Part shown: positions 6,294 to 25,148 of the stretch, piece by piece
How the letters are laid out: the number at the start of each line of letters is the position of its first letter
Numbering within the stretch: position 1 is the first letter of the stretch
IMG/VR virus record: IMGVR_UViG_3300044712_002711
Span: 1 to 32,865 of that record
Length of the DNA stretch: 32,865 nucleotides
Reading direction: 5' to 3' (one strand)
Source: a virus
The notes under the pieces: generated by a model
Databases searched by the model: none
Seen by the model: the letters and a program-made list of their open reading frames with translations, nothing else
Told to the model about the DNA's origin: nothing
Made by a program: the position numbers and the translations under genes

Positions 6294-6325
6294 ATTGTAT
6301 AGAAGGCAATTGGATTTCTTATATA
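6294..6325 (-). promoter_or_regulatory. Late promoter motif, copy A
   Basis: Minus strand: TATATAAG (6318-6325), 16-nt spacer, TATACAAT (6294-6301). It occupies the 44-nt gap between the 6333-6647 gene and the fibre gene at 5452-6288, whose ATG begins 5 nt downstream. A 9-bp inverted repeat, ATCCAATTG and CAATTGGAT, overlaps the -10-like part. Confidence 0.65.
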
Positions 6326-6332
6326 TTTTTAC

Positions 6333-6647
6333 CTATACAACCTTGCGGTAAGTGATGAGAATAACTGAACCGCCAGCTGGTGCCACGGCAAAAGTGATAG
6401 TGCCGGCGGTAGTGCTTGTTTCAGTGTAGTCAGTAGTTGGTTTTAGTAATGAACCGTTTTTATAAACCATGGTTGAGGCAGCTTTATATTTATTTGCTAA
6501 AGTAAAAAGCTGATTTGAACCGTTAATAGTTCCGCTAGGAATTTCATTAATAATTAAACTATCAAGTGAGTCACCCCCACCGGTACGCTCTAACACTCCT
6601 AGGCGTCTTTCTATTGATTTAATTAAATCTAAAAATGTTTCTGGCAT
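6333..6647 (-). CDS. Small fibre or baseplate protein
   Basis: 104 aa from the ATG at 6645-6647, 1 nt past the stop of the tail hub gene (TAATATG arrangement, implying coupled translation). The N-terminal 25 residues are helical (ETFLDLIKSIERRLGVLE). The rest is a beta domain with IPSGTINGSNQLFTLAN and MVYKNGSLLKPTTDYTE, a pattern I know from fibre attachment or beta-sandwich domains in many phage baseplate and fibre proteins. A linker between tail tip and fibre is the likely role. Confidence 0.6.
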   Translation of the reverse strand: MPETFLDLIKSIERRLGVLERTGGGDSLDSLIINEIPSGTINGSNQLFTLANKYKAASTMVYKNGSLLKPTTDYTETSTTAGTITFAVAPAGGSVILITYRKVV

Positions 6648-6648
6648 A

Positions 6649-7680
6649 TTAAACAAGGCTTAAAGTTACTTGGCTACTACCACCCTCAACATATATAGTT
6701 CGTTTTTTAATTCTAAGTAAATCATCCAAACCAATACTATCGACTCTAACTCGAACTGTGTCGCCTACTGAATAATCAAGAATATCTGGAGTGTTGTCTA
6801 AGTGAGTCAGTGAAAATGAGCTAACAGGTTCTTTATTATCAGTTAGAAATTGATCGCCTCTATCTTGCAGCGTAGTGGCTTGACTAACATCTTTCTCACT
6901 CAATACATCTTCTTGTAAATACCAGTTGGGCATAACGCTGGTGTCTTCGCGTTTTTCGTAAATTTGAGAATCACCAAAGCCAACACCTAGAACATATACT
7001 CGATTTGTGAGTTTGCCAGCTAGGGGTTCATCGCTAGTAAATGAAATAATATTAAAATCATCAAAGACAATATTAGGCCGACTAGTTCCTTTTGCTGGAT
7101 AATAGATATTGAACACCTTGGAAGTATCAATGTCACAATCGTAACCGTCTTTGACTTTTTCGTTACTCATACCAACAATTACATCTCTAACGTTATCAAA
7201 GCGAAGTGTGCGGTCACGGTCCTTAGTAGTTGGATGAGATCCTCTTGTAATTCCAAGATCACCAAAACCACTAGCATCATTTTGACTTTCATCAATTAAA
7301 GTCCAGGCAATATCGGCGCTGTCTTCACTAGTGAAAGCTCTAAGTGCAGCGGTTCTTCTTTTAGCTAAGAAAGCTAGATAATCACCAATAGGTAAAGTAA
7401 GACTAGTAGCCCCTACCTTGCCCCCTCTTGTTTGTCTGTTCATTACTACACCGTTAAAAATTAGCGTTGAGTCTTTATAAATTTTTGCCAACCTCGTTCC
7501 ACTGCCTAGCATTGTGTCAGGAGTTGTCTTTAGAGCAGTTAAATAATTTTCGAGAGCTTTGTAGCTAATGTTAATAGTGCCGTCCATACCCTTATTTAAA
7601 TCTTCGGTTAAAGTAAAGGAATCAAAGGGAATGGACCATTGAAGAGTTTCGCCAATATTAAACAATTTTATTTCAAACAT
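6649..7680 (-). CDS. Tail hub / baseplate (Tal-like) protein
   Basis: 343 aa. Its position after the distal tail protein, its length and its content fit the N-terminal hub portion of tail-associated proteins, with phrases such as DSTLIFNGVVMNRQTRGGK, SLTLPIGDYLAFLAKRRT and YSVGDTVRVRVDS typical of gp27-like hubs. It should close the tube at the tip and carry the fibres. No lysin domain is fused to it, unlike many Tal proteins. It starts 2 nt after the Dit gene. Confidence 0.7.
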   Translation of the reverse strand: MFEIKLFNIGETLQWSIPFDSFTLTEDLNKGMDGTINISYKALENYLTALKTTPDTMLGSGTRLAKIYKDSTLIFNGVVMNRQTRGGKVGATSLTLPIGDYLAFLAKRRTAALRAFTSEDSADIAWTLIDESQNDASGFGDLGITRGSHPTTKDRDRTLRFDNVRDVIVGMSNEKVKDGYDCDIDTSKVFNIYYPAKGTSRPNIVFDDFNIISFTSDEPLAGKLTNRVYVLGVGFGDSQIYEKREDTSVMPNWYLQEDVLSEKDVSQATTLQDRGDQFLTDNKEPVSSFSLTHLDNTPDILDYSVGDTVRVRVDSIGLDDLLRIKKRTIYVEGGSSQVTLSLV

Positions 7681-7682
7681 AT

Positions 7683-8525
7683 TTAGATCCCGCTATAAGC
7701 ATCGTGATAAGTAAAATCACTATGAGCAAGTTGGGACGTGCTAGCAGTTACCATTTTAAGCAAGTTGGTACCTGGAACTAGCCACCACCACGTACCGGTT
7801 ATTTGATGCAAAACGTTTGTAGTGCCACCCAATAAAGCAGTTCGATTGTAGAAATCAAAATCAATATAATTAGTTGATAAAACTAGATTGGTCGTACAGC
7901 TAAGAGTTTCGCCAGTAGTTTGATTGACTAAATCAAAGCCATTCATGGGACCGTACACTCTGACGATCGGGTATGAATCAACATTGCCATCATTAACCAA
8001 TGACTTAATTTGTGTACCAGTTTGAACGCTCATATCCATGGGGATAGCCATAGGTATAGCCATGCCACCACCATTAAAAATATAAATTGTTTCAGTTTTA
8101 TCTGGACCATTAAAATATTCGCGCTCAGAAATACATTGAATTTGTATATTAGACTTTGTTAATGTGTCTTGATCGATGTCCGAATTTACAGCACTAACAA
8201 CGGCGTTGATATATCGCTCACTATCATCGGATAGAATAAACCTGAATTGCTTAGTTTGAACTAATGACTTATCACTTTTTAGAGCAAAGAGAGCTAAAAA
8301 ACTATCCCGCTGCGTTACTAAATCCGGAATGGTGTCGCCTACTACCGCCCAATCCATAGAAAAGCCGAAATTACGATAAAAGGGAGTCGATAGTGCTACC
8401 CCACTCCTACCCCCGCGCGCGTAGCTGGAAACATCAATACTGGCTTGAGTTGAGCCTTTAATAGCCTGTAAAAAGCGTTTATCGTTGGTGATTGGGGCAC
8501 CATCCACATACACTTCTTTAATCAT
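7683..8525 (-). CDS. Distal tail protein (Dit-like)
   Basis: 280 aa. The N-terminal region (to about 140: IKEVYVDGAPI, SSYARGGRSG, ISEREYFNGPD) fits the ring-forming Dit domain of siphophages. The C-terminal half (DSYPIVRVYGPMNGFDLVNQ, YIDFDFYNRTALLGGTTNV) matches the galectin-like half of Sipho_tail proteins. A short internal repetition, MAIPMAIPM, joins the halves. It links the tail tube to the hub. Its ATG overlaps the tape measure stop (TAATG), so it is probably translated by re-initiation. Confidence 0.75.
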   Translation of the reverse strand: MIKEVYVDGAPITNDKRFLQAIKGSTQASIDVSSYARGGRSGVALSTPFYRNFGFSMDWAVVGDTIPDLVTQRDSFLALFALKSDKSLVQTKQFRFILSDDSERYINAVVSAVNSDIDQDTLTKSNIQIQCISEREYFNGPDKTETIYIFNGGGMAIPMAIPMDMSVQTGTQIKSLVNDGNVDSYPIVRVYGPMNGFDLVNQTTGETLSCTTNLVLSTNYIDFDFYNRTALLGGTTNVLHQITGTWWWLVPGTNLLKMVTASTSQLAHSDFTYHDAYSGI

Positions 8526-10351
8526 TAGTACCTTCCACTATTATTAAATGCGTAAGCTAATCGCTGACTTAATAAGTTGATATCAGTTTCACTATTTACG
8601 GTGACGCCACCTAGGTTAATTGTTGGACCAGCTGAATTGTTGTATACGTTACTTGGCACAGACTGACGACCAGCCATCATATCTTTAGACATAACAAACT
8701 CGCCGGCGTGTAATACTGCTGGACCAGTTGAAGGAACCCAACCACCATTTTCATACCATTTCATTTTTGGAACGCTAACTTTTTGACCCATAAAATCTTT
8801 TTCTTCTTGTTCGAGGTGAAGTGACGGAATGTGAATATTAGTTAAAATACTAACGATGCTATCAGCCAATCCTTTGAATAGATTTTTAACGTTTTCAATT
8901 TGTTGATTAATGAAATCTTTAATTTTGGTGAACCAACTAACGGCCGAATCAAAGTAACCCTTCCACGAACCTTCCCATTGATCCTTAATAAATAATAATC
9001 CGGCGTTGATTAAATTTTTAACAAAGGCCATTCCAACCGATATATTGGCTTTTAATTGTTCCCAGATTTGCATAACATACGGTCCAATGTAGCCCCAAAC
9101 AAATTCAAATACAGCTTGGATCATGGCTAGCTGCATCTGTACTTCGGCAAACATTGACATCAAAACAAATTGAACCAGGGTAACTAACAAGTTACCGATG
9201 TATGAAACCACATTGTAAATACCGTTAAAAATAAATGAAAAGAAATCAAAAATAGCTTGTAGTGGCGGTTGAATAGTTAACCAAATATTTGTAACTGCAC
9301 TAGTAATTGATGCAACAGCTTGATTAAAAACATTAGTTACATTTTGCCAAAGGTTTGTAAAAAATATTCCTATGCTTTCCCAATTGCTGGATATCATTGA
9401 TGCTGCGAAAACCAATGCTCCAGCTAAAAGACCACCCGCAGCGATCAACGCTCCAACAGCGCCGATGGTAGCAATCAAAGATCCTACTAAAAGAACGCCA
9501 AAAGTAACTGCTAATATTATTAGGGTTCTGCTAATTGCAATTATGAGATCTTGGTTTTGTTGCAAAAAAGTATTTAATGAAAGCAACGCTTGATTAACTT
9601 GATCTAAATTACCACCAGATCCCATTATGGCTGCTACTAAACCCTGTCCTAGGGTTTCTCTTAAATCACCAATATTATTTTTCATAATTGTGATTTGACC
9701 AGAAAATGTTTTTGATGATGACAGCGCCGAACCACCAAACTCAGTGGCTAATTCTTTTAGAATTAATTTTTGTGCGTCCATTACTTTACCAGATTCAACT
9801 AAAGTTTTAATGGTGTTCTGTTGTTCTTCATTGAAATTAACACCAACTTTTCTCAGGGCAGACACGCCTATAATTGGATCTTGTAAAGCTTTACCCAATT
9901 GAATCGATGAGGATTTTAAATCCTGACCTAGAGCTTGGGACATGTCTAGAACTGTTTGGGTAGCTGTAGGAAAAACATCTTTACTAATATTAGTAAAGGT
10001 TAGCAACAAGCTTTGTGCTCCAGTAATAGCTTCATCATCAAATTTTGATTGTTGTTGTAGCGCAGTGGATAATTTTAAAACCTCTTCTGCTGTTACCCCA
10101 GCCACTCCTTTTGTTGAATCCAACACTGCATTTAATTGAGCCGTAGCATTTTCACTTTCTTCAAATGCTGAAATAGAAGAATAAATCACTCCAGAGACCG
10201 TGGCAAAAGCAGCGGTTAGGGGAACCACCGCATCTTCGGCCAAGTCTTTCATTGACTTAGTTTGTTTTTCTACCTCATCAGAAACGCTCCTTAGAACCTT
10301 ACTGGCCTCATCTCTGGCTTTAAGAATAATCTCAAGAGTACGGTTATCCAT
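8525..10351 (-). CDS. Tail length tape measure protein
   Basis: 608 aa. The N-terminus (to about 250) is helical with ARDEASKVLRSVSDEVEKQ and a TMP motif region (FGGSALSSSKTFSGQ, MKNNIGDLRETLGQ). A very hydrophobic middle (about 265-320) and several amphipathic stretches follow. The C-terminus has the usual GGWVPSTGPAVLHAGEFVMSKD segment. It sets tail length and helps DNA and membrane passage. By the common rule of about 0.15 nm per residue, a tail near 90 nm is expected. No Shine-Dalgarno precedes the ATG. The late promoter motif at 10386-10417 lies 34 nt upstream. Confidence 0.92.
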   Translation of the reverse strand: MDNRTLEIILKARDEASKVLRSVSDEVEKQTKSMKDLAEDAVVPLTAAFATVSGVIYSSISAFEESENATAQLNAVLDSTKGVAGVTAEEVLKLSTALQQQSKFDDEAITGAQSLLLTFTNISKDVFPTATQTVLDMSQALGQDLKSSSIQLGKALQDPIIGVSALRKVGVNFNEEQQNTIKTLVESGKVMDAQKLILKELATEFGGSALSSSKTFSGQITIMKNNIGDLRETLGQGLVAAIMGSGGNLDQVNQALLSLNTFLQQNQDLIIAISRTLIILAVTFGVLLVGSLIATIGAVGALIAAGGLLAGALVFAASMISSNWESIGIFFTNLWQNVTNVFNQAVASITSAVTNIWLTIQPPLQAIFDFFSFIFNGIYNVVSYIGNLLVTLVQFVLMSMFAEVQMQLAMIQAVFEFVWGYIGPYVMQIWEQLKANISVGMAFVKNLINAGLLFIKDQWEGSWKGYFDSAVSWFTKIKDFINQQIENVKNLFKGLADSIVSILTNIHIPSLHLEQEEKDFMGQKVSVPKMKWYENGGWVPSTGPAVLHAGEFVMSKDMMAGRQSVPSNVYNNSAGPTINLGGVTVNSETDINLLSQRLAYAFNNSGRY

Positions 10352-10385
10352 ATTGATTTTTTTGTGGTATATAATAACTAAAGTA

Positions 10386-10417
10386 TTGTACTGAGCATAT
10401 TAAGTATTCTTATATAA
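10386..10417 (-). promoter_or_regulatory. Late promoter motif, copy G
   Basis: Minus strand: TATATAAG (10410-10417), 16-nt spacer, AGTACAAT (10386-10393). It drives toward the tape measure gene (ATG at 10351) with a predicted leader of about 30 nt. The same AT-rich palindromic core could also serve the divergent plus-strand gene at 10422. Confidence 0.6.
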
Positions 10418-10421
10418 ATTT

Positions 10422-10673
10422 ATGAAAAATAGAAAATGTGACAATTGTGACCATTACAAAGTTGGAAGCAATCATGAGGTTATGTTAATTTCTGCTGCTA
10501 TTTTTATTTTGTTTGGGGTTATGCTTATTCCATTTTTTGTCGGCATCCCATTGCTAGCCGTTGGATTAGGTTTTTTAGCTGTTGATTTTTTTAAGCTTGT
10601 CCCAATTGAATGTCTTCATTGTAGAAAAAGATTTACTAGAGAAGAATACAAGCTGTTAGAAAAACAAAAGTAA
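10422..10673 (+). CDS. Small membrane protein with split zinc ribbon (moron)
   Basis: 83 aa on the strand opposite to all neighbours. Cys6-x2-Cys9 at the N-terminus and Cys64-x2-Cys67 at the C-terminus could form one zinc ribbon. Between them lies a hydrophobic hairpin of about residues 20-55 (SAAIFILFGVMLIPFFVGIP). It is inserted between the tail chaperone and tape measure genes. Its stop codon directly abuts the end of the chaperone extension (10673/10674). No Shine-Dalgarno is present. A TTATAT element 6 nt before the ATG would again give a nearly leaderless message. Function unknown; a lysogenic-conversion gene is plausible. Confidence 0.6.
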   Translation: MKNRKCDNCDHYKVGSNHEVMLISAAIFILFGVMLIPFFVGIPLLAVGLGFLAVDFFKLVPIECLHCRKRFTREEYKLLEKQK

Positions 10674-11209
10674 TTATTTTTTAATTTTTAGTTTAGCTTG
10701 TTCTGCCTTAGCTTTTCCCTCTAAATAGGCCAGTTGTTTATAAACCCAAATCATGGGTTGTTTTTCAAGTTCTGTGTAAGTAATACCTAAGGCATCACAG
10801 ATATAGTTTTCAATTAACTCATCTGGTATTGGAGAACCCGAGTGAAATGATTTAAACGTCTCGGCGACTATTAAGTCGCTTGCGATTTTGGGAGTAAAGA
10901 CGAATTTCTAATCTGATTAATTGCATCCATTATCTCAGTTCCATCTAAAGCCGGAATGTCACCAATTGCTTTAGCTGGATTTGCTAGTTCGACACCTTGA
11001 GGATCAACCAATTTTATCAAAGCAATATCCAAGGCTTTTTGATCTGCTGCCAGCATGGTATCGCCACTCATGCTTGCTTGTTTATCGTTTTGATCCAGCC
11101 TTACCCCAGAAGTAATTATGGTTTTAATTTGAGAATGTTCTTGAAAAGTTAAACTATTTTTTATCGTGGCAACATATTTGTTGCTGGTAGTAATGTCTCG
11201 AGTCTGCAT
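10674..11209 (-). CDS. Tail assembly chaperone, long form made by -1 frameshift (G-T type)
   Basis: The short form ends at 10871. A second frame, offset by -1, stays open from the slip site to a stop at 10674-10676, although it has no start of its own at the junction. Shifting at CCCAAAA joins 108 codons of the short form to 70 codons of the extension, giving 178 aa. The extension (for example PMIWVYKQLAYLEGKAKAEQ) resembles T-domain tails of such proteins in composition. The position between tail tube and tape measure is exactly where lambda G and GT lie. The fusion should wrap the tape measure during tail assembly. Confidence 0.85.
10864..10892 (-). promoter_or_regulatory. Programmed -1 ribosomal frameshift signal
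   Basis: Slippery heptamer CCCAAAA (10886-10892) lies in the zero frame as C CCA AAA, the ideal X XXY YYZ form. Six nt later a perfect 6-bp stem GCGACT/AGTCGC (10864-10879) has a TAAT loop, and the zero-frame stop TAA sits in that loop. Spacer length and stem position match known stimulatory hairpins. Confidence 0.9.
10871..11209 (-). CDS. Tail assembly chaperone, short form (G type)
   Basis: 112 aa, the unshifted product. N-terminal beta part (TSNKYVATIKNSLTFQEHSQIKT) then a helical part (MLAADQKALDIALIKLVDP). Translation starts at 11209 after AGGGGG at good spacing, about 28 nt below the -10-like element of the late promoter motif at 11237-11270. In well-studied phages the short form is made in large excess over the fusion, and both coat the tape measure protein. 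Confidence 0.85.
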   Translation of the reverse strand: MQTRDITTSNKYVATIKNSLTFQEHSQIKTIITSGVRLDQNDKQASMSGDTMLAADQKALDIALIKLVDPQGVELANPAKAIGDIPALDGTEIMDAINQIRNSSLLPKSQAT

Positions 11210-11236
11210 AAGAGCCCCCTATATTTTGTTACTGAA

Positions 11237-11270
11237 CTAGTATAGAGAGGTTAAAACGATTTCTTATATA
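11237..11270 (-). promoter_or_regulatory. Late promoter motif, copy B
   Basis: Minus strand: TATATAAG (11263-11270), 18-nt spacer (the others have 16), TATACTAG (11237-11244). It lies upstream of the tail chaperone gene and just below the DUF3800 island, so it could restart late transcription after that insertion. Confidence 0.55.
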
Positions 11271-11288
11271 TTTTTGGTGGTAGTAATA

Positions 11289-11476
11289 CTGGCTGCTGCT
11301 GGTTAAGTGCCACCAGTAATTGCGGCCGAGTACCAGTAGCTGCCAGCTGGTGGCCAACATTGGCCAATGCTTTACAAGTGGCTGTAAAGTTTGTAGACTA
11401 TATATGATCGCTGGTCGATCAGGGATTTCCGCAAGGAATCGCAAATAGGTCTGTTAAGCAGACCTTATTTGTTTTT
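11289..11476 (+). ncRNA. Candidate structured non-coding RNA with intrinsic terminator
   Basis: About 190 nt without a credible gene and dense in pairing. Stem A: 11289-11302 with 11333-11346 (12 Watson-Crick pairs, one G-U, one mismatch). Stem B: 11309-11316 with 11347-11354 (8 perfect pairs). A and B cross, giving pseudoknot or switch topology. Then come a 12-bp palindrome (11358-11369), CTTTACA/TGTAAAG (11370-11389), TGATCG/CGATCA (11405-11421), TTCC-GCAA-GGAA with a GNRA-type loop (11427-11438) and an 11-bp terminal stem followed by a T-rich tail. The G-U pair, the GCAA loop and the T tail all favour the plus strand. Promoter and family are unknown. Confidence 0.5.
11443..11476 (+). terminator. 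Intrinsic terminator (plus strand)
   Basis: Stem 11443-11453 with 11459-11470 (eleven pairs, one bulged T, loop TTAAG), followed by TTATTTGTTTTT. The T tract is good on the plus strand only. Read on the minus strand the hairpin directly follows the DUF3800 stop codon, where it may still protect or end that message. It may therefore act on both strands with unequal strength. Confidence 0.7.
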
Positions 11477-12266
11477 AGACGAGTTTTTTTCCAACACCAA
11501 TGACAGTGCCATAACCATTTTTATGGTACTTGGATTGAATTTTAGAAATTAAAATTTTTGTATAGTTTTCCACCAAGTCTTTATTTATAACTTTATAAGT
11601 TTTTAAAACATCCAGCTTTGATGGCAATGATAATGAATCGGCTAATTGCAAGCCAGCAATTCCCAATTTCTTATCTTTGACTTTAATTTTTTTTGAAGTT
11701 AATTTATTTTGAATGGCCGAAGCTGGAATGTAATAAGTGCCAATAGTGTAAAACCTTGTATATTCTTGTTGTAGTAATCTGTCTTCTTTTTTACCCCTCG
11801 CCTCAATCATCACGTCACCAGTTGATTTATTTGGCTGTAAATATTTGACATATCTTTCTAACAAAAGGTCAATTGAATAATGGTATGGGTTCATTGATGC
11901 AGCACCATACTTTTCTTTATGAGCCGCTTTGTCCACCACAATAGTTATGATTTTAAATGGCAATCCATCAATTAGCGATTCAAGTGCTTTAGTGTATCTA
12001 GTTTTAAAATCTGCATCATTCAATTTAATAAATAGGCCTTCTTTTTTACAAATTTCATCCCTGTGCAAAATGGGTAACGTATCCGGATCATCAGTAAATA
12101 ATCTTCTAATATTCAACATTTCAGGTTGCAAAATATTTTCATTATCTTGATCCTCAACAATGATGCCTGTTAATGATAGGTACCTTTCTTTAAAATTTTG
12201 TTCGTTTAGTGGTTTAGATGAATAGCCCAACGCGCCCGATTCATCGATATACAGTCGATATTTCAT
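11475..12266 (-). CDS. DUF3800 family protein
   Basis: 263 aa from the ATG at 12264-12266. The frame is open for 6 further codons without a good start, and GAGGG precedes the chosen ATG. The N-terminus YRLYIDESGALG carries the Asp-Glu-Ser-Gly motif that marks DUF3800. Further acidic and basic residues (IVVDKAAHKEKYG, MIEARGKKEDRLLQ and LQLADSLSLPSK) fit the family, for which an RNase H-like nuclease fold has been suggested. It is inserted between tail tube and tail chaperone genes with its own promoter-like sequence, typical of a moron. DUF3800 genes also occur near defence genes, so a superinfection-exclusion or RNA-processing role is possible but unproven. Confidence 0.8.
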   Translation of the reverse strand: MKYRLYIDESGALGYSSKPLNEQNFKERYLSLTGIIVEDQDNENILQPEMLNIRRLFTDDPDTLPILHRDEICKKEGLFIKLNDADFKTRYTKALESLIDGLPFKIITIVVDKAAHKEKYGAASMNPYHYSIDLLLERYVKYLQPNKSTGDVMIEARGKKEDRLLQQEYTRFYTIGTYYIPASAIQNKLTSKKIKVKDKKLGIAGLQLADSLSLPSKLDVLKTYKVINKDLVENYTKILISKIQSKYHKNGYGTVIGVGKKLV

Positions 12267-12341
12267 AAAAAAGCCCTCTCCCACTTGCTGATTACCACAT
12301 CAGCAAGCAAGAAAAGGCTTTATTTTATTATTGTGGTAATC
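12267..12341 (-). promoter_or_regulatory. Hairpin-rich leader of the DUF3800 gene
   Basis: Stem 1 is CTTGCTGA (12284-12291) with TCAGCAAG (12300-12307). It is enclosed by AAAGCC (12270-12275) with GGCTTT (12316-12321), and on the minus strand it runs into a T tract directly before the ATG, like an intrinsic terminator. Stem 2 pairs GATTACCACA (12290-12299) with TGTGGTAATC (12332-12341) and overlaps stem 1, so the two exclude each other. The rest of the 12267-12465 gap, from 12355 up, shows nothing I can name. Confidence 0.5.
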
Positions 12342-12354
12342 TTCAGTGGGTCAA
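12325..12354 (-). promoter_or_regulatory. Possible sigma-70-type promoter of the DUF3800 gene
   Basis: Minus strand TTGACC (12349-12354), 18-nt spacer, TAATAA (12325-12330). It differs in kind from the late motif copies, which suggests expression of this island outside the late programme. The right arm of a 10-bp inverted repeat (12332-12341) lies in the spacer and could be half of an operator. Confidence 0.4.
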
Positions 12355-12465: not shown

Positions 12466-13428
12466 TTAAGTTGCGTAACTAGTGGTTAAGTTAGTCAAGA
12501 CGGCCGATATTAGTTTAGAGGTGACAGTGTCATATAAACCTTCAAACTCGACGCTTAGCATGCAAAAATCTTCAGTGATCGAATTAGTTGCAACTTTAAA
12601 TATTGCTCTTGGTAATGTCAAAGCAAATTTATAGTTACTAGCTGAACCGATAGCGTCACCGGTAAAGGTTAAAACGATAGCGCGTTCAGTTTTAGCTAAG
12701 TAGTCAGCGAATAAAGTAGCGCTGTCGGTGTTTAGATATAACTCGAATTTTCCAGAAACTTCGGATGCTTTCACATACGAAAATTGTGGGGTGTAACTAC
12801 CCAGAGCATATTCTAATTCAACGCCGTTTTTAAACTCCAACTCTAAGTTTTTAACTTCATTGAATGGAGTGCCGCCAATAGTAACGCCATCAGCTGCTAA
12901 ACAATCGGTGAATACGAATGGTCGAATGGTGTCATAAGAAGCGCTAATTTTAGTTGCTGAAGCGTGAGTCTTAGCTTTAACTCCAAAGTTGGCCACGACT
13001 GGTTCACCTTCTTTAACAGATAGTTTCATGCTGTTTACGATACTTCCAGCAAAACGTCTGGTTATTTCACCAACTGATTGTTCAATGGTTAATGAAGGTT
13101 TGGTTTCAGCTTCGGTTAAAGTGTGCTCATAAACAATCGATTCACCAGCTTTGGCAGCTGAGTTACAACCACCGAAAAGACTTTTTAAAAAGTAACCAAT
13201 GTTTACAGGAATAAAATCCATTTCAAATTCACCCTCATATTTAGCTTTACCAATGTGAGAGTGTTGATATTTTGGAAGTACAGCGCGGATGCTGCTATTT
13301 AATTGGATATCGTTATCAACTTGAATACCATCGCCAGGTTTAACTGCGATCGATTTGCTTGGTACAACTGTACCGCCCCATGAAGCTTCTTGGCCTAAAC
13401 TGATTTGAGATAATACACCTGCTGACAT
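12466..13428 (-). CDS. Major tail tube protein
   Basis: 320 aa. Position between tail terminator and tail chaperone, length and beta-rich sequence fit the siphovirus tail tube protein. Examples are SQISLGQEASWGGTVVPSK near the N-terminus, KYEGEFEMDFIPVNIGYFLKS, and a C-terminal strand set with VSGKFELYLNTDS and CMLSVEFEGLYD. It should polymerise around the tape measure as hexameric rings. Shine-Dalgarno GGGGAA overlaps the end of the 52-aa gene just upstream (3-nt gap). It is probably one of the most abundant late products. Confidence 0.82.
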   Translation of the reverse strand: MSAGVLSQISLGQEASWGGTVVPSKSIAVKPGDGIQVDNDIQLNSSIRAVLPKYQHSHIGKAKYEGEFEMDFIPVNIGYFLKSLFGGCNSAAKAGESIVYEHTLTEAETKPSLTIEQSVGEITRRFAGSIVNSMKLSVKEGEPVVANFGVKAKTHASATKISASYDTIRPFVFTDCLAADGVTIGGTPFNEVKNLELEFKNGVELEYALGSYTPQFSYVKASEVSGKFELYLNTDSATLFADYLAKTERAIVLTFTGDAIGSASNYKFALTLPRAIFKVATNSITEDFCMLSVEFEGLYDTVTSKLISAVLTNLTTSYAT

Positions 13429-13431: not shown

Positions 13432-13590
13432 TTATTCCCCTTTTTTCTTCTTACTTGGTTTTTCCATTTTTATTTCTATAAAATCTGGGTTAACAATTTC
13501 GACATCAGTTTTAATTATTTGTTCTGGCTCAATTATTCCAACACCTGCCAGATGTGTCACTGATTTTCCTATATATTTATACTGTCTCAT
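13432..13590 (-). CDS. Small protein (52 aa) of the tail operon
   Basis: ATG at 13588-13590, stop at 13432-13434. The sequence begins MRQYKYIGKSVTHLAGVG and ends in a Lys-rich tail (KPSKKKKGE). Short proteins opening with K-Y-x-G-x-S are common in the connector and tail region of siphophages. It fills the gap between tail terminator and tail tube. Its ATG lies 6 nt after the -10-like TAGAAT of late motif copy C and lacks a Shine-Dalgarno, so it would be the first gene of a leaderless transcript that also carries the tail tube gene. Confidence 0.7.
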   Translation of the reverse strand: MRQYKYIGKSVTHLAGVGIIEPEQIIKTDVEIVNPDFIEIKMEKPSKKKKGE

Positions 13591-13596: not shown

Positions 13597-13628
13597 ATTC
13601 TACTGAAACGCTATTGATTCTTTATATA
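13597..13628 (-). promoter_or_regulatory. Late promoter motif, copy C
   Basis: Minus strand: TATATAAA (13621-13628), 16-nt spacer, AGTAGAAT (13597-13604). It fills the 41-nt gap after the tail completion gene. The ATG of the 52-aa gene follows 6 nt later. It would drive the tail tube. Confidence 0.65.
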
Positions 13629-14841: not shown

Positions 14842-15381
14842 TTAGACAGGAGTAAGCCTGTACTTATCAAGCATAATTTGTACAAACTGTGGAATGCCGT
14901 CTTTAGTTAAATATTCGATGTTAACTGGACCAGTAGAAACCTTGCTTACCACTTTGCCAGCATCGGATTGTGATTTAAATATTTGTGAAACCCATTGAAC
15001 CAGAGCGTGCTTTAAATCAGCTGGTATAGCTGTAGCGCTTGTTTTATATTTGATCTCAATATTTTGATAACCGTAATTAACTTTAGTTGATAATAGAACA
15101 TATGAGCCATAATTATAAATACTGCTCGAGTCATATAAGACGCCATCAACTTTAACACTAGTGATCGAGGCAATGGGTGGGTTAGCTGGAAAAAAAGTAT
15201 CAGTGCCGCCATCATGCAGCTCGGTTATTTCTGTGTTTGAAGTATTGGTCCATGTGCGATTGCAATAAGAATCAGCGAAAGCGTCAAGTGCAGTGATTAA
15301 GGCAGTGACTAGAGTTTCGCCATTAGTGGCTAAAGTAATATTTAAAAATGTTTCAATATCGGTTTTGGCTATGTATGGCAT
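14842..15381 (-). CDS. Head-tail connector (gp6-like) protein
   Basis: 179 aa from the ATG at 15379-15381 (MPYIAKTDIETFLNI). A TTG two codons upstream is also in frame. The N-terminal helix, ALITALDAFADSYCNRTW, PPIASITSVKVDGVLYD and ALVQWVSQIFKSQSD fit gp6/gp15-type connectors that dock under the portal. No Shine-Dalgarno is present. The ATG lies 5 nt after the TAGAAT of late motif copy D, consistent with a leaderless message. It heads the connector-tail completion operon. Confidence 0.75.
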   Translation of the reverse strand: MPYIAKTDIETFLNITLATNGETLVTALITALDAFADSYCNRTWTNTSNTEITELHDGGTDTFFPANPPIASITSVKVDGVLYDSSSIYNYGSYVLLSTKVNYGYQNIEIKYKTSATAIPADLKHALVQWVSQIFKSQSDAGKVVSKVSTGPVNIEYLTKDGIPQFVQIMLDKYRLTPV

Positions 15382-15386: not shown

Positions 15387-15418
15387 ATTCTACTGAAGAT
15401 AAACAGTTTTCTTATATA
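15387..15418 (-). promoter_or_regulatory. Late promoter motif, copy D
   Basis: Minus strand: TATATAAG (15411-15418), 16-nt spacer, AGTAGAAT (15387-15394). It fills the 45-nt gap between the repeat-protein gene and the connector gene, whose ATG follows 5 nt later. Confidence 0.65.
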
Positions 15419-15426: not shown

Positions 15427-16944
15427 TTACCCTTGTTTATATGAAAGACTTGATCGAGGAGTAGACATCGAAGTGCTACCATGTGATAAATCAGTGCTTG
15501 GATTAGCTAAAGCTGTTCGGCCATCAAATAAATCTGTTCTTGGAATACTTAAAGAACCTATTCCCCTAAGGCTACAACCACGATTATTATTTGCAGCGAA
15601 AATACCTGAAAGCTTTGCGGCTCTTTCTGATTGCTGATTAGCAGTGCCTTTTAATTTAGCAGACCTATTGCTTGCGGCTGATAAAACACCATTTAATTTT
15701 GCACCTCTTTCGCTATTAGCTGGAAGTGAACCTTTTAATTTAGCGCTACGTTGTGAATTAGTGGTTAAGTAACCTTTTATTTTTGCTGACCTTAACGAGT
15801 TGGTTGATTGTTTACCAATAACCTTTGATGATCTTTCATTATTAGTTTGAACTTTACCGGTAACTTTTGCGTTACGGGTGCTTTGTGTGTTTTGCTTACC
15901 GATTATTTTTGCGCTACTTTCCGAAGAGGTGGCAATTTTACCTAGTGTCTTGGCTGATATTGATGAATTTGTATTAACTTTTCCAGATAACGAAGCGCTA
16001 CGCTGGCTAAAATCGGTTGATTTTCCTTGAGTCTTAGCCGATCTATCACTAGAAACGTCATCTTTGCCAGATACTTTTGCATTATGCTCGCTATTAGTAT
16101 TTAGGTTTCCTTTTAGCTTAGCTGAACGTTCGGCAGTGGTATTATCCTTGCCTAGCAGCTTAGCTTGTCTATCGCTATTAGAACCACTAGCGCCAATTAG
16201 TTTGGATGAGCGCTCATTATTACTAGTTAAAAATCCAGTTACTTTAGCACTTCGACTATTTGAAGTGTTATCTTTACCAGCAATTTTGGCGCTGCGAGTA
16301 TCGTTAATTAATTGTACTGCTGTGAGTTTAGCTGATCGCTCGCTAACATCTGAATTTTTACCAGTAGTTTTTGAAGAGCGCTCATTACTAACAGAGCTAA
16401 CACCTTTAACACTCGCTGGTCTTTCGCTATTACTCGTTGAATATCCAGATATTTTAGCTGGTCTTTCGTTTAATGCTGAAGCTGTACCTAGTAGTTTTGC
16501 TTCTCGCTCTGAGTTGGAACCAAGAGAACCATTAATTTTAGCTGACCTACTAGAATTATCTGATTGATTACCAGAAATTTTAGCAGATCTAGAAGAGTTA
16601 GAGGTGTCGAGTCCAACTAAGCTAGCTGGTCGTTCTGAAGTAGTATTAACCTTTCCAGTTAATTTTGCTGAGCGGTTATCATTTGTGCTTGCGTTACCAG
16701 TTAGCTTAGTTGGCCTATCAGATGATGAACTAGCTTGCCCAGATATTTTAGCTGACCTTTCAGTAGAAGTGAGGATTATTCCAGTTAATTTACAGGATCT
16801 TTCACTGTCGACACTCGCGCCAGCTGTAGAGGTGGGGAAAATAGTTTCGTTTGGGAGTCCATTAAACCAATATTTTTGAGTACCGCTATCATTTGCTGTT
16901 ATTTCTATGCCTTCTGTAGGGAGTCCGTTAAACCAGTTTTTCAT
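15427..16944 (-). CDS. Virion-associated protein with 30 tandem 14-residue repeats
   Basis: 505 aa. The N-terminus holds a duplicated motif, NWFNGLPTEGIEI and YWFNGLPNETIFP (about 3-37). Residues 42-461 are thirty copies, without a length change, of a 14-residue unit such as NQSDNSSRSAKING or YLTTNSQRSAKLKG (consensus x4-NSERSAKLxG). The last 44 residues hold three more divergent 14-mers (SIPRTDLFDGRTAL, then ANPSTDLSHGSTSM, then STPRSSLSYKQG). The strict period suggests a regular fibrous fold, probably beta. Ser, Thr and Asn content is very high, giving many possible glycan sites. The gene lies between head and connector genes. GGAG precedes the ATG. I know no function for it. Confidence 0.85.
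   Translation of the reverse strand: MKNWFNGLPTEGIEITANDSGTQKYWFNGLPNETIFPTSTAGASVDSERSCKLTGIILTSTERSAKISGQASSSSDRPTKLTGNASTNDNRSAKLTGKVNTTSERPASLVGLDTSNSSRSAKISGNQSDNSSRSAKINGSLGSNSEREAKLLGTASALNERPAKISGYSTSNSERPASVKGVSSVSNERSSKTTGKNSDVSERSAKLTAVQLINDTRSAKIAGKDNTSNSRSAKVTGFLTSNNERSSKLIGASGSNSDRQAKLLGKDNTTAERSAKLKGNLNTNSEHNAKVSGKDDVSSDRSAKTQGKSTDFSQRSASLSGKVNTNSSISAKTLGKIATSSESSAKIIGKQNTQSTRNAKVTGKVQTNNERSSKVIGKQSTNSLRSAKIKGYLTTNSQRSAKLKGSLPANSERGAKLNGVLSAASNRSAKLKGTANQQSERAAKLSGIFAANNNRGCSLRGIGSLSIPRTDLFDGRTALANPSTDLSHGSTSMSTPRSSLSYKQG
15562..16821 (-). repeat. 30 x 42-bp coding tandem repeats
   Basis: Encodes residues 42-461 of the repeat protein. The unit length is constant at 42 bp while the DNA copies have diverged strongly, so selection acts on the protein period rather than recent DNA amplification. 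This is not a CRISPR array: there are no constant repeats or unique spacers. Confidence 0.9.
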
Positions 16945-19512: not shown

Positions 19513-19514
19513 AT

Positions 19515-19937
19515 TTATTTCACCAGTACCCAACAATTATTTGTATTTTTTTCATCAACCCACAATTGCAGTCTATGATCTGGATAGATCGCTTCAATGA
19601 CAGTAAACCAGCCATTAATTTCACTACCAGCCACCTTCATATCAACAATATCCATATCTCGGGATATTTTTCTAAACATTAAATAATCAATTGGTTTTTC
19701 TAATAACTCAAACTCTGAAAATTTTGGATTCTTACCGCTACTGGGTAAGTTAAAATGCTGACCTAATTTTGTGTAAAGAGATAAAGAAGTAATTACCAGC
19801 TTTTTTTCTGCAATATATTTAAGTAGTTTCTGCCAAGGGGATGGTTGATCGGCAATTTCTTGAAACTTGCCTTTACCTTCATAAAAAGTTTCACCATTGG
19901 ATAGGGAAACTTGCCATAAAACATTGTGAGTCAACAT
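19515..19937 (-). CDS. Conserved phage hypothetical protein, 140 aa
   Basis: Alpha/beta protein with NVLWQVSLSNGETFYEGKG at the N-terminus, PWQKLLKYIAEKKLVITSLSLY, LPSSGKNPKFSEF, and a beta C-terminus (RLQLWVDEKNTNNCWVLV). The overall look is of a conserved phage or plasmid protein that I cannot tie to a function. GGAGG precedes the ATG. It sits between capsid-associated genes and the spike-like gene, with 2 nt separating it from the latter. Confidence 0.6.
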   Translation of the reverse strand: MLTHNVLWQVSLSNGETFYEGKGKFQEIADQPSPWQKLLKYIAEKKLVITSLSLYTKLGQHFNLPSSGKNPKFSEFELLEKPIDYLMFRKISRDMDIVDMKVAGSEINGWFTVIEAIYPDHRLQLWVDEKNTNNCWVLVK

Positions 19938-19987
19938 CTTGCCTCCTAAAATAATTTATAGTCTCGATGAGCCTATGTGTTTGGTTT

Positions 19988-20272
19988 TTATTCTTTAGAT
20001 TCTTCTTCAGCTTTTGCTTGGACCACTACTTTTGCACCTTCGCTCATTTCAGCGTTAACCACTGGCCCGTCTAAATCTAAGGTGAAAGCTTCGGTAGCCA
20101 CGATCACTTCTAATTTATCAGCCATTTTAAATGGTAAAGAAACTAAGTGATCAGGTGAAACAATTCCAGAGATACCAGCAATCACAACGCGAACTTTGCC
20201 AATTAACTTTGGATCAGCCCCACACTCTTCGATAATTTCTTTAGCGGTATAGATAGCGTTTCGTTTTAACAT
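19988..20272 (-). CDS. Hypothetical head-associated protein, 94 aa
   Basis: Not recognised. N-terminal helix (NAIYTAKEIIEECGADPKL), then strands (KVRVVIAGISGIVSPD, KLEVIVATEAFTLDLDG) and an acidic tail (AKAEEESKE). AAAGGAG lies at ideal spacing before the ATG. It is 8 nt downstream of the 181-aa protein gene. The location among capsid genes suggests a head completion or decoration partner. Confidence 0.55.
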   Translation of the reverse strand: MLKRNAIYTAKEIIEECGADPKLIGKVRVVIAGISGIVSPDHLVSLPFKMADKLEVIVATEAFTLDLDGPVVNAEMSEGAKVVVQAKAEEESKE

Positions 20273-20280
20273 AAACTCCT

Positions 20281-20826
20281 TTATGAATAAGTTAGCTCAT
20301 CCCTTAATTTGAAAGCTGTTTTTAAGCCTACAGAGTCAGGACTTGCACTGATTAAGAAAAAGAAATCGTGAGAAGTAGCGCTGCCGCTATCAGTAATAGC
20401 TAGGGCTGAACCGCTACCTTCGGCTAATGTCCAGGCTGCGTCACCTTGGTTAGCTGCGTAAAAAGTGATATCAGTGGGACCATTTGTGGTTACTGACCCG
20501 TCATAAGCATATAGTTTATGACCTGTCACAGTTACAGCTGAGCCATGAGCAAAGTTAATCTTTAAAGGACAATTGCCAGTAGTGATAGTGTTTAAAGCGA
20601 CTGAACCGCCACCGATATCGACAGTTCCAGAAGTTAAATATTTGCTATTTTTTGGAGTGTTAGCGGATGACTTATCAGCTGCGCCTGCCGTCTCAACGTG
20701 AGTTGAACTATTAAAGGCACCGACTACGATGGCACTACCAAAAGTACCACCGGCAAATTGAATTAAGTCGGTTGCGTCAATTGTGGTTGGGGTTGTACCT
20801 TGTAGGGTCCATGTATAGGTTGCCAT
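20281..20826 (-). CDS. Beta-rich capsid-associated protein (decoration candidate)
   Basis: 181 aa, almost entirely small, Gly, Ser, Thr and Ala-rich beta sequence (TYTWTLQGTTPTTIDATDLI, FGSAIVVGAFNSSTHVET, DFFFLISASPDSVG). The gene lies two positions after the major capsid gene, where siphophages often encode head decoration or fibre proteins. No cysteine-rich or catalytic motif is visible apart from one Cys. A weak GAAAG precedes the ATG. Confidence 0.5.
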   Translation of the reverse strand: MATYTWTLQGTTPTTIDATDLIQFAGGTFGSAIVVGAFNSSTHVETAGAADKSSANTPKNSKYLTSGTVDIGGGSVALNTITTGNCPLKINFAHGSAVTVTGHKLYAYDGSVTTNGPTDITFYAANQGDAAWTLAEGSGSALAITDSGSATSHDFFFLISASPDSVGLKTAFKLRDELTYS

Positions 20827-20847
20827 ATTTGTTTTACTTTCTATTAA

Positions 20848-21063
20848 CTATTTTTTTACTCTCTTATTTTTTGGTGCAGCTTCTACCATTTTGTTTCGGC
20901 TAGGTTTACTAACCATTTTTGGTTCGGCTACTGCCTCAGGATGTTCTAAAGCTTCGACTGAACTACCGAGGGCATAAAAGGCGTTAATACCAATGTCACA
21001 TTCTTGACCTCTTTGAAAATCTTTACCCTCAAAACGTGTGCCTTCTAAAAATTTGACTCTCAT
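20848..21063 (-). CDS. Hypothetical small head protein, 71 aa
   Basis: N-terminal beta part MRVKFLEGTRFEGKDFQRGQE followed by a basic C-terminal tail (KPSRNKMVEAAPKNKRVKK). Small proteins of this shape often follow the HK97-like capsid gene. AAAGGA precedes the ATG. It is the first gene after the strong hairpin that follows the capsid gene. Its role is unknown. Confidence 0.55.
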   Translation of the reverse strand: MRVKFLEGTRFEGKDFQRGQECDIGINAFYALGSSVEALEHPEAVAEPKMVSKPSRNKMVEAAPKNKRVKK

Positions 21064-21097
21064 ATATTCCTTTCTGAGTTTATTTGTAACCTCACTT

Positions 21098-21121
21098 CTA
21101 GCGGGGATGACTCCCCGCTAG
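21098..21121 (-). other. Perfect 10-bp hairpin after the capsid gene
   Basis: CTAGCGGGGA (21098-21107) and TCCCCGCTAG (21112-21121) pair perfectly around a 4-nt loop. It is GC-rich in an AT-rich genome and lies in the 72-nt gap after the capsid stop codon. No T tract follows, so it may stabilise or process the mRNA, or partly attenuate it, rather than terminate fully. Confidence 0.7.
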
Positions 21122-21135
21122 TGTTAGGTCGCAAA

Positions 21136-22275
21136 CTAGGACGCTGCGGTCTTCAACCATGCAAAGGCTGAAGCTGGATTGGCTAACTGGATATCGATTT
21201 CACCAGAAACTTTCAGAGCAACCATGTTTTGTTCAAACAAGTTGATCAAAGTAGATCCGTTTGTATCGGTAATAGTGGCCTGTTCAGACATTTCTAGCGT
21301 GTAGGCTTGGTTATCACCGTGGATGATAGAACCAAAGTCAACTAAAGCTAAGAATTTCTTACCAGCTTGACTCACTTCGGTGGTTTTAGGCATTACTGGA
21401 CTTAAGGAATAAGGAATATCCCACATAGTCGCAGGTGCGGTGTTACCAAAGCCCTGGAACAAGAAACCTTGTTTGTCAGCGCCTACGGCAGCTCGTTGTT
21501 TTCTAAATCCATTGAAAACAGAACGAGACAACACCCATCGCAAGCGATCTTCTGAGATATTGTCATCGACTTTATCTAGAACATCCAAAAGATCTTCTGG
21601 GACTGCATCCACATAATCAGTTTCACCTGATCCGAGAGTTACACCAGTAACATCAACGCTCTGGAAAACACCCTCAGTGGCGGCTAAGCCGAGCATAGCC
21701 CATTGATCTTCTAATTTAGCGATAGCCTCACCAATCAAGACGTTCAAAACATCAACCACCTGAATAGTGGCGTTTTGTAAGAGCTTGCGGCTGATTGGGA
21801 TGATTACCCCAATAGTTTTGGCTCTCAACGCTAAACTACCAGTAGTAGGTTGACTTGACGTGATCTTGTTGCCTTCGGTTATCCGATAGGCTGAAACACT
21901 ATCCATGGTAGGAACGTTTTCGTTCATACCTTGCATAGGCCATTTGCGAGCAAATTGTCTGGTTAAACCATATTTGCCAGCAACGCGCACAACTTCACTG
22001 GAAACGTAAGTTGGAACCAACTCACTACCAGATGTAGAAGTGCCGGCAGACAACGCTTTGGTGTCTTGACCGACTGATAACTTCCTTAAATAATCCGCTG
22101 CTGTCTCTTTCTGTTCTCGCAGTTCTGCGTCGGCTTTATCGCCGAAAACATCTTTGCGGGCGGGAAGCTCTTCTTTCATTTTAGCTAAAACAGCTTCGGT
22201 TACTTGAGGCACAACTGCTTCTTTCACACCTGCTGTAATATCATCAACGATTTGTTTCACTTCGTCGTTTTTCAT
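21136..22275 (-). CDS. Major capsid protein (HK97 fold)
   Basis: 379 aa from the ATG at 22273-22275. The open frame runs 31 codons further into the protease gene, but GGGGGGTG sits just before this ATG. Residues 1 to about 75 are a charged helical delta-like scaffold segment (VKEAVVPQVTEAVLAKMKEE), normally removed by the prohead protease. The mature part shows the phage capsid pattern (ALSAGTSTSGSELVPTYVS, SRKLLQNATIQVVDVLNVL, WVLSRSVFNGFRKQRAA, FLALVDFGSIIHGDNQA). It forms the icosahedral shell. Confidence 0.92.
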   Translation of the reverse strand: MKNDEVKQIVDDITAGVKEAVVPQVTEAVLAKMKEELPARKDVFGDKADAELREQKETAADYLRKLSVGQDTKALSAGTSTSGSELVPTYVSSEVVRVAGKYGLTRQFARKWPMQGMNENVPTMDSVSAYRITEGNKITSSQPTTGSLALRAKTIGVIIPISRKLLQNATIQVVDVLNVLIGEAIAKLEDQWAMLGLAATEGVFQSVDVTGVTLGSGETDYVDAVPEDLLDVLDKVDDNISEDRLRWVLSRSVFNGFRKQRAAVGADKQGFLFQGFGNTAPATMWDIPYSLSPVMPKTTEVSQAGKKFLALVDFGSIIHGDNQAYTLEMSEQATITDTNGSTLINLFEQNMVALKVSGEIDIQLANPASAFAWLKTAAS

Positions 22276-22279
22276 ATTG

Positions 22280-23089
22280 TTATTCACCCCCCTTCCGGGT
22301 TTTAATATAATTATTAATGTCTCTAAGCAATAATCCGACTCCCTTGTCCTGCTTTTTAAGCACTTCACGAATTTGTTCTAAAAATTTCAGTTTGTTTAAT
22401 TGATCTTCACTAATTAACCATTCAGCTAATAGTTTTTTGCTCTCGTCATCTAAAGCTTTAACAGCTTCTTCGGTTAATAAATCCTTGAGAGTCACTTCTT
22501 TTTTATCTTCGATGTCCCCATCTTTGATGTCTTCTTTTTCACTGTCTTCATTTTTTTCTGAATCCGGGGCGATCTCTTTTTCCATTAAATCGTCGGTATT
22601 TAAGCCCTTACTTCTTAACATTGTCAAAGCTTCTGGATTGTCAGGAACCAACACGGCTGAATACTCTAGCAATTCCCATTCTCTGATAATGTAACCGTGA
22701 TCTTCTTTTTGCTCGTAACGTTTAGGAATAAAACCAATTGACCAAGCGTTCATGAAACCACCCTTATACATGTCATAAAGCATATCGGCGGTTTTATTAA
22801 CGCCTGCTGGTGTGAACTGTAATTTAGCAACAATTCCATCGCCTGTTTGTGTTAATTCCAAGGTCTTAGCGATCGCTGGTTCATGATAGTTATGGAAAGC
22901 TGCCACTACTGGATTCTTTAAATAGTTTTCGGCAATCATGCCCTCTGGCATAACTTCATCTTTGGAACGATCGGGGTTTTTAGTAGAAATTTTGACGGTC
23001 AAAACTCTATCTTCACCCTCAACCGCTTTTGTTTCGCTGGCGGTAAAAATCTTTTGAATTTTTTGGTTATCTTGGATTGTATGTTTCAT
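22280..23089 (-). CDS. HK97-type prohead protease
   Basis: 269 aa. Catalytic region: His66 or His69 in AFHNYHEPAIAK and Ser117 in GFMNAWSIGFIPKRYE, followed by EWELLEYSAVLVPDNPEAL, the family hallmark. Residues 165-269 are a long acidic, Lys-rich helical tail that may serve as a scaffold. It should cleave the capsid delta domain during maturation. The ATG is preceded by AGGAA and lies 13 nt after the -10-like TACAAT of late motif copy E. Confidence 0.9.
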   Translation of the reverse strand: MKHTIQDNQKIQKIFTASETKAVEGEDRVLTVKISTKNPDRSKDEVMPEGMIAENYLKNPVVAAFHNYHEPAIAKTLELTQTGDGIVAKLQFTPAGVNKTADMLYDMYKGGFMNAWSIGFIPKRYEQKEDHGYIIREWELLEYSAVLVPDNPEALTMLRSKGLNTDDLMEKEIAPDSEKNEDSEKEDIKDGDIEDKKEVTLKDLLTEEAVKALDDESKKLLAEWLISEDQLNKLKFLEQIREVLKKQDKGVGLLLRDINNYIKTRKGGE

Positions 23090-23102
23090 AGATTCCTATT
23101 CA

Positions 23103-23134
23103 ATTGTATTGACCTTGTTATGATTCTTTATATA
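23103..23134 (-). promoter_or_regulatory. Late promoter motif, copy E
   Basis: Minus strand: TATATAAA (23127-23134), 16-nt spacer, AATACAAT (23103-23110). It fills the 54-nt gap between portal and protease genes and would drive protease and capsid. The distance to the ATG (13 nt) leaves room for the AGGAA ribosome site, unlike copies A, C, D and F. Confidence 0.65.
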
Positions 23135-23143
23135 TTTTTACTT

Positions 23144-25111
23144 TTATTCCTGAACTACAGGCACAAGTGAGCATCTACAATTAGGATGAACTGGCGGTGC
23201 ATCACCACCATTTTTAAAATGATCTTCTAAACCGATCGCCCCCTGATCCTCATTTTCGGCACATTCGGGATCAACTCGATCATCACCAGCCGTTAACCAA
23301 CGTTTCATTTTTACTACGCCACTTTGGCGATAACCTTCCAGGCTACCTTGTGCATAAGAGGCAATAGTTTCGGTTCTAGCGATACGTTCTGCTCGATAAT
23401 CAGCTTGTAAATCAAAGAACGATGAAATACTACCGGCCATATCATTGATGCTTAATCCCTGGTCGATGCCGTCGTATAAAATACCCCTGATTTCTTCTTT
23501 GAGTGTTTCAACCATCCAAGTAGCTTTTTTGAGGGCGTTTTTACTGATCCACTCCAAAGCTCTTGGGTGTTTAAGATCAAATGAAATATCAACATTGACT
23601 TGTTGAATCGCTTCGGTCCCCGCCATTAGTAACGCATCTTGATATAGACTTTCATTTGCATTTTTAAAATCTACTTGCCACTTGCTTTCAATCTCGCGGA
23701 AAATAACAGCTAGAATTTCTTTGTTTAAATCTTTGGTGAATGATTTATCACCCTTGAGTCGTTTAATAATCTCATTCTTTCGACTTAGTATGATGTGTTT
23801 ATATACAGTCTTTTGTTCAATAATCTTATTTCTGAGATATCTTTGTCGTTTATTAACGCCTTTATGGCTAAACTCTTTTTTAACTGCTTTGTCTTGTTGA
23901 CTGTCAGCCGACACTGCTGGCTCTGATGAATAAGTGATGGGGACCATGTTTAGTGGTATATACGGAACCTCGCCACCCTCGACCGGCTCCTTGCCTTCCA
24001 TTTCTCGAACTTCATTGATGGTATAGTAACCATTCTTTAAACCAGCTTCTTTGACTTTTAGATCAAGTTCGACGTTATCCGGCACAGGATCAACAAAGGT
24101 AAAGCGCCAGTTGTCTTGATTTAAGCCTTTAAATAATGGCAAGTAAAACTCATTAAGTTTTTCGACAATTAATCTAACCATTGGGCGGATACGATATTTA
24201 GCAAAAATATATTCGCTAGCTTCTGCATTGGCACGGTTAACATCTTCAACAATTCCCAGGATAACTTTTGGTACTCTAAATAAAGCTAAGATCTCATCCC
24301 TACTAAACCGTCGAGATTCTAAGAAATCCATGTCTTTTTGAGACATACTGATAGGATTAAACTTTAAACCAGATTCAAGAATAGCTAGTTTGTGTGCATT
24401 ATCTAAACCTTGGTATTTTGATTCCCACTGAGCCTTTAATCTAGCGTGTTGCTCTGGGGTTAAAGCTTTATCTGTTTCTAATGTTGCCGAGGGCATTGCT
24501 GAGTTATAGAAAAAGTTCTTATTCCAAGTAGCTGCAAACTCATCAGTATCAATAGCGACGGCCGCGGCTGCTACGGTCCCGATTCCTCGATATAAGCTTT
24601 GTGGATTAAATGTTTTATGGGGAATTACTTCATCAGTTTCAAGCCTTTTGATACCGTTATCAGTTAACAGTTCATAGTGAGTTATTAAACCAGTGCTGTC
24701 ATTTTTAGCCGTTAGCTTACTCGGGTTGAGCGGCCAAATTTCTAGGGGTCTACTACCTGATTCATTTTTAATCACTAACCAGGGTGCGTTACCGTCTAAC
24801 TCTAGGAGTGAAGCGGTGGAAAATAACAACTCATAACCAGATTGAAGAGGGTTAGCTTTTTGCAATGGTACTAGGGCTTCATGTTCTGGTACATCTTTCC
24901 AACCGTCTTTTGTTTTAGTCTGTAATTTAATTTGAGTGCTGGCAACGTTATCGCCAACGGCATTAATACAGGCATAAACCCAACCTTTATATGCGGTTAG
25001 CCTATTCTTTGAATAAATATCTGGGGCGTTTTGCCCGAATAACATGCTAAAAACTGAGTTGAGTGGGCCGGTTGTAGTAGACTTTTTTCTTAGAAAATTT
25101 AATATCGACAT
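23144..25111 (-). CDS. Portal protein fused to a MuF-type head morphogenesis domain
   Basis: 655 aa from the ATG at 25109-25111. Residues to about 400 are an HK97-family portal (YKGWVYACINAVGDNVAST near the N-terminus, SRRFSRDEILALFRVPKVIL and ANAEASEYIFAKYRIRPMV later). About 420-655 is a helical region ending in a MuF/minor-head domain: RAERIARTETIASYAQGSL and the terminal VHPNCRCSLVPV. The two are separate genes in most phages. The portal ring is the DNA channel; MuF domains are ejected or structural head proteins. There is no Shine-Dalgarno. The ATG lies 5 nt after the TACAAT of motif copy F. Confidence 0.9.
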   Translation of the reverse strand: MSILNFLRKKSTTTGPLNSVFSMLFGQNAPDIYSKNRLTAYKGWVYACINAVGDNVASTQIKLQTKTKDGWKDVPEHEALVPLQKANPLQSGYELLFSTASLLELDGNAPWLVIKNESGSRPLEIWPLNPSKLTAKNDSTGLITHYELLTDNGIKRLETDEVIPHKTFNPQSLYRGIGTVAAAAVAIDTDEFAATWNKNFFYNSAMPSATLETDKALTPEQHARLKAQWESKYQGLDNAHKLAILESGLKFNPISMSQKDMDFLESRRFSRDEILALFRVPKVILGIVEDVNRANAEASEYIFAKYRIRPMVRLIVEKLNEFYLPLFKGLNQDNWRFTFVDPVPDNVELDLKVKEAGLKNGYYTINEVREMEGKEPVEGGEVPYIPLNMVPITYSSEPAVSADSQQDKAVKKEFSHKGVNKRQRYLRNKIIEQKTVYKHIILSRKNEIIKRLKGDKSFTKDLNKEILAVIFREIESKWQVDFKNANESLYQDALLMAGTEAIQQVNVDISFDLKHPRALEWISKNALKKATWMVETLKEEIRGILYDGIDQGLSINDMAGSISSFFDLQADYRAERIARTETIASYAQGSLEGYRQSGVVKMKRWLTAGDDRVDPECAENEDQGAIGLEDHFKNGGDAPPVHPNCRCSLVPVVQE

Positions 25112-25116
25112 GACCA

Positions 25117-25148
25117 ATTGTATAGATCGGTTGTCGATTTCTTATATA
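25117..25148 (-). promoter_or_regulatory. Late promoter motif, copy F
   Basis: Minus strand: TATATAAG (25141-25148), 16-nt spacer, TATACAAT (25117-25124). It fills the 45-nt gap upstream of the portal gene, whose ATG starts 5 nt downstream. This is the copy closest to the terminase genes. Confidence 0.68.

Follow-up and report, generated by a model that had tools for sequence, protein, structure and literature searches.

Late genes and intergenic elements of the window

The window analyzed here is an IMG/VR virus record of 32,865 bp. Genes on its minus strand match PHROGs families of large terminase, portal, protease, major head, tail, tape-measure and endolysin-type proteins, and an integrase-like gene was read from the translation of positions 1-1038. 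The same strand encodes the large terminase at 25621-26985, a gene assigned to the small-terminase role from its position (26942-27442), and a 103-aa protein with a sigma-70 region 4 (28011-28322), which is proposed below as a late activator on the basis of Pfam, its homologues and its predicted fold. Two glycosyltransferase-like genes (28294-29703 and 29885-30592) separate the early genes from the region-4 gene. A 505-aa protein composed of repeated SxRSAKLxGxx units, with no PHROGs match, is encoded between structural genes at 15427-16944.

Seven copies of a two-part element, here numbered as putative late promoters 1 to 7, precede structural genes in the sense direction on the minus strand. 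Promoter 1 (25117-25148; TATATAA at 25148-25142, -10 hexamer TACAAT at 25122-25117) lies 5 nt before the portal gene (ATG at 25111), for which a leaderless transcript is predicted. Promoter 2 (23103-23134; TACAAT at 23108-23103) is separated by 13 nt from the prohead protease gene (ATG at 23089), and promoter 3 (15387-15418; TAGAAT at 15392-15387) by 5 nt from a connector-type gene (ATG at 15381). Promoter 4 (13597-13628; TAGAAT at 13602-13597) is found 6 nt before a small gene (13432-13590, ATG at 13590) that is followed by a tail protein gene (12466-13428). Longer gaps of 29 and 33 nt separate promoter 5 (11239-11270; TATACT at 11244-11239) from the gene at 10871-11209 and promoter 6 (10385-10416; TACAAT at 10390-10385) from the tape-measure gene (8525-10351). 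Promoter 7 (6294-6325; TACAAT at 6299-6294) lies 5 nt before a virion structural gene (5452-6288, ATG at 6288). All seven elements are wholly intergenic, in a region where intergenic DNA makes up 8.8%.

These copies were first described in a sequence-only reading, which placed them in short gaps between late genes, and all seven are present there. Five of its coordinate pairs are exact; the copy given as 10386-10417 is shifted by 1 nt, and the 18-nt spacing proposed for a copy at 11237-11270 disappears once TATACT is taken as the -10 hexamer, leaving the spacing constant in all seven. The conserved unit is longer than first thought: a four-nt A- or T-tract, T-R-TATAA, a weak TC at -16/-15 and TANNNT. 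The pattern TATATAA-N19-TANNNT has seven matches, all on the minus strand, whereas 300 order-3 Markov simulations covering both strands gave a mean of 0.003 and a maximum of 1. The seven copies score 33-44 bits with a weight matrix; since the next-best positions reach at most 13 bits and are shifted copies of the same seven sites, there is no eighth copy on either strand of the window, including upstream of the terminases and in the lysis region, as the earlier reading had also noted. It was likewise right that the first element is not a sigma-70 -35 box: TATAAR occupies -36 to -31 in all seven copies, with two or three of six matches to TTGACA.

The motif family in related phages and their probable host

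A search with the portal protein identified two relatives, L007 (47% identity) and L047, a contig binned as Candidatus Shapirobacteria (43% identity). In both, the portal and protease genes are preceded by variants of the motif that keep its geometry. Searching with the protease recovered many more relatives than the earlier searches. In the closer ones, the gap before the protease gene nearly always contains TRTATAA, 19 nt and TANNNT, and the motif occurs at this position in about 18 relatives. Across the 35 full records searched, AANRTATAA-N19-TANWAT has 41 matches, spread over 16 of the 17 ingroup records and confined to a single strand in each, compared with none in the reversed control and none in the 18 more distant relatives. 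The wider pattern TRTATAA-N19-TANWAT has 61 sense and no antisense matches in 0.33 Mb of ingroup DNA from about 20 phages, so that the motif search has turned the seven copies of the window into members of a family of predicted promoters.

The spacing within this family is strict. Other spacers of 10-29 nt give 0-2 sense matches each in the same DNA. An excess of five at spacer 30 was rejected as a real signal, since TAxTAT strings that coincide with the start codons of canonical sites account for four of them. An iterated matrix finds 85 sense and two antisense sites; the information per position is about 0.7-2 bits in both boxes, except for one -10 position at 0.2, and near zero in the spacer bar the weak TC at -16/-15. 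Two boxes held at one fixed distance, with the sequence between them drifting, are what selection on a promoter is expected to leave. The ingroup sites also have the features of a bacterial-type promoter: a -10-like hexamer, a fixed upstream distance and sense orientation.

The sequence-only reading had the motif restricted to the structural module, which holds for the window but not for three relatives, where copies at L122:4292, L124:4372 and L128:1397 precede the gene in the small-terminase position; in the window neither this gene nor the large terminase has a motif upstream. Among viral contigs, the exact window pattern is carried by a near-identical assembly of the window phage (L006/L045). 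Five further matches represent one unrelated phage locus, lie antisense inside a portal-like gene and were taken as chance.

The distance to the start codon is also constrained. In 62 of 83 sites, the first ATG that opens an ORF lies 5-13 nt past the end of the -10 hexamer, with modes at 6 nt (16 sites) and 8 nt (18 sites). Provided that transcription starts at the usual distance, a short gap of this kind predicts that many late mRNAs lack a leader or carry one of only a few nt. This geometry bears on whether the sites are promoters at all. Operators or 'stoperator'-like sites for a phage repressor would likewise form one-directional repeats in gene gaps, the elements are asymmetric, oriented, intergenic and repeated, and the stoperators of mycobacteriophage L5 provide a known precedent. 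A near-consensus -10 at a fixed distance, followed by an ATG 5-13 nt downstream, nevertheless argues against repressor sites, as does their confinement to late genes with no copies in early control regions, and we regard this explanation as extremely unlikely.

The host of these phages is probably a member of the Patescibacteria (Microgenomates). This assignment is indirect and derives from the contigs of relatives, for which binning errors are possible: L047 is in a Shapirobacteria-binned contig, and L113, in a genome of the same class as the Shapirobacteria genome, has a region-4 gene on a contig with a recombinase and a long surface-type protein (gene calls by reading). The exact window pattern is absent from 351 genomes of the host class. 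As it is too strict to be informative, the general pattern was searched in 40 genomes from this class, where it matched 46 times, including once at the phage site of L047 itself, and the reversed control 47 times. In candidate host genomes (L203-L218; G028, G008, G034), a -10 (TANWAT) peak is seen about 6 nt before the ATG of long ORFs, most clearly in one of the three. This suggests that leaderless transcripts may be common in the candidate host bacteria.

These host data weigh on another explanation, namely that the elements are promoters for an unmodified host holoenzyme with its primary or an alternative sigma factor. The -10 is close to TATAAT, and the -10 about 6 nt before the ATG is a feature shared with genes of the candidate hosts. 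A holoenzyme of this kind would nonetheless have to read a box that is no TTGACA element and that occurs at chance frequency in the 40 genomes of the probable host class. It seems very improbable that the host enzyme alone accounts for the motif.

The region-4 protein and its proposed box

The protein encoded at 28011-28322 matches Sigma70_r4_2 (PF08281) with an E-value of 2.2e-6 and 27.6 bits, above the gathering threshold of 25.7, and thus belongs with sigma-70 region 4 proteins. It is not a complete sigma factor: only residues about 40-92 match, to region 4, and no sigma region 2 is found. PF08281 also matches eight of the 12 members of the protein family at E <= 0.1. A structure predicted from 12 sequences has a mean pLDDT of 91-97 in blocks over residues 41-90, compared with a poor earlier model from three sequences (pLDDT 56). 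Its fold resembles the -35-binding domains of sigma factors (3vfz, Z 9.3, rmsd 1.4 over 60 residues; 8x6g, Z 9.4, rmsd 2.1 over 69 residues), with the caution that middling Z scores come easily for small helical domains; Foldseek with the predicted structure gave no E-value below 0.001.

The distribution of the gene follows that of the motif. Among records of at least 12 kb, 12 of 13 from the ingroup and one of 13 distant ones (G399/L121, E 2e-11) contain a homologue. The correspondence is imperfect in two cases: G384, a 34.8-kb and possibly incomplete record, has many motif sites and no region-4 gene that could be found, and L113 has the gene with only one clear motif site. Because related phages may share both motif and gene by descent, their co-occurrence alone is no proof of interaction. 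Searches of viral contigs with one to three region-4 sequences recovered only L007, and the protease alignment worked better. When 380 genomes of the phylum were searched for region 4 at E 1e-8, the sole match was the Shapirobacteria contig already known. Apart from L113 and L095, the weak matches among host genomes resemble ordinary sigma factors of the host or other HTH proteins and were rejected. L095 (G368:C17:34945-35223) is a bacterial contig in which a 231-aa protein whose C-terminus is region-4-like adjoins an integrase gene, and no late motif is found there.

The distant record with the region-4 gene, L121/L219 (IMGVR_UViG_3300049432_000131), is a phage of 61% GC and carries a different box. 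It contains no RTATAA sites; RGATAAC-N18-TANRAT is instead found in six sense copies (L121:2207, 4269, 9703, 11506 and 13253, and L219:3034) with no antisense copy, in the same geometry as the TRTATAA family, and RGATAAC-TANRAT has no match at other spacers of 12-26. Its region-4 protein, at record position 42455-42715, is divergent and differs in the recognition helix (KRLQICRM compared with LQAIHQI). This suggests that the protein and the box change together; being a specificity change in one lineage, it suggests rather than proves this. Within the TRTATAA family, a comparison by eye of recognition-helix residues with the choice of A or G in the second position of the box found no link. A different box alongside a divergent region-4 gene would also be unexplained by a rule of the host enzyme, with the reservation that the host of L121 may differ.

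The same observations help to weigh whether another phage activator binds the -35-like box in the manner of T4 MotA, leaving the region-4 protein some other role. Such promoters would have the architecture of T4 middle promoters, in which a phage box takes the place of the -35 and the host -10 is kept (PMC2988021), and the protein in the small-terminase position is, like several early proteins, another possible DNA binder. It is the region-4 gene, however, that tracks the motif across records, in a comparison that covered this gene alone, and its most divergent copy accompanies the changed box. We consider a different activator unlikely.

A candidate late switch and its known counterparts

The elements are probably late promoters at which a host sigma factor reads the -10 and the phage region-4 protein reads the -35-like box. 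Host RNA polymerase with its primary sigma would contact the -10 hexamer TAYAAT, and the phage box W4-TRTATAA-(G/C/A)AA, at about -42 to -29, would stand in for the usual TTGACA contact at -35. The reader of this box would be a protein consisting essentially of sigma region 4, which probably replaces, or docks beside, region 4 of the host sigma on the polymerase; as a result, late genes would fire only once it has been made. In most cases transcription would start at the first ATG or immediately upstream of it, yielding late mRNAs that are leaderless or very short-leadered. The sequence-only reading had suggested a phage-specific or modified holoenzyme, and altered -35 recognition is supported by the conserved boxes and exact spacing, the sense orientation, the distance to the ATG, the chance frequency in host genomes and the presence of a phage region-4 gene.

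As about 20 relatives have the same predicted switch and spacing, usually together with the region-4 protein, their late genes are probably switched on by swapping one part of the host transcription machinery. A broader proposal, which we advance tentatively and rate a little short of even, is that in a widespread lineage of Patescibacteria phages a stand-alone sigma region 4 serves as an exchangeable -35 reader, its specificity evolving with the late promoters as the -10 and spacing stay fixed and late mRNAs are mainly leaderless. In the searchable literature, no promoter class was found described for phages of Patescibacteria. The motif provides a simple guide to late genes and their start codons in many uncultivated phages, and a candidate late activator can now be named for them. 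The observations point to leaderless mRNAs both in these phages and in their candidate hosts, and the phages offer a natural series for how a detached sigma region 4 alters promoter choice.

Several known systems share parts of this arrangement. T4 late promoters, which depend on gp55 and gp33, likewise split sigma-type functions to serve many late promoters. T4 gp55 reads a changed -10, whereas the elements of the window combine a host-like -10 with a change on the -35 side. Xpf, the positive control sigma-like factor of PBSX (NCBIfam NF005385), is also a sigma-like protein of a phage-type element and is the best-matching named phage regulator among the NCBIfam matches to the 103-aa protein (E 2e-5); the match reaches 24.4 bits against a cut-off of 136 and covers only the C-terminal region 4 part, which places the protein outside that family. 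The Ltr, RinA and ArpU late activators of Gram-positive phages are comparable as small phage proteins that activate genes for packaging and structure. The matches shown for the 103-aa protein include none to a RinA or ArpU family model, and at the Ltr promoter of phi13 18-bp repeats form a block above one promoter (PMC13123087), in contrast to the many units here, each with its own single box. At T4 middle promoters, a MotA box replaces the -35 element and the sigma-70 -10 is kept, through sigma appropriation by AsiA and MotA (PMC2988021). The elements described here resemble them in combining a phage box for the -35, a retained host -10 and near-fixed spacing (PMC2988021), but differ in that the MotA box is centred at -30 whereas TRTATAA lies at -38 to -32, and in that the candidate activator has the predicted fold of sigma region 4.
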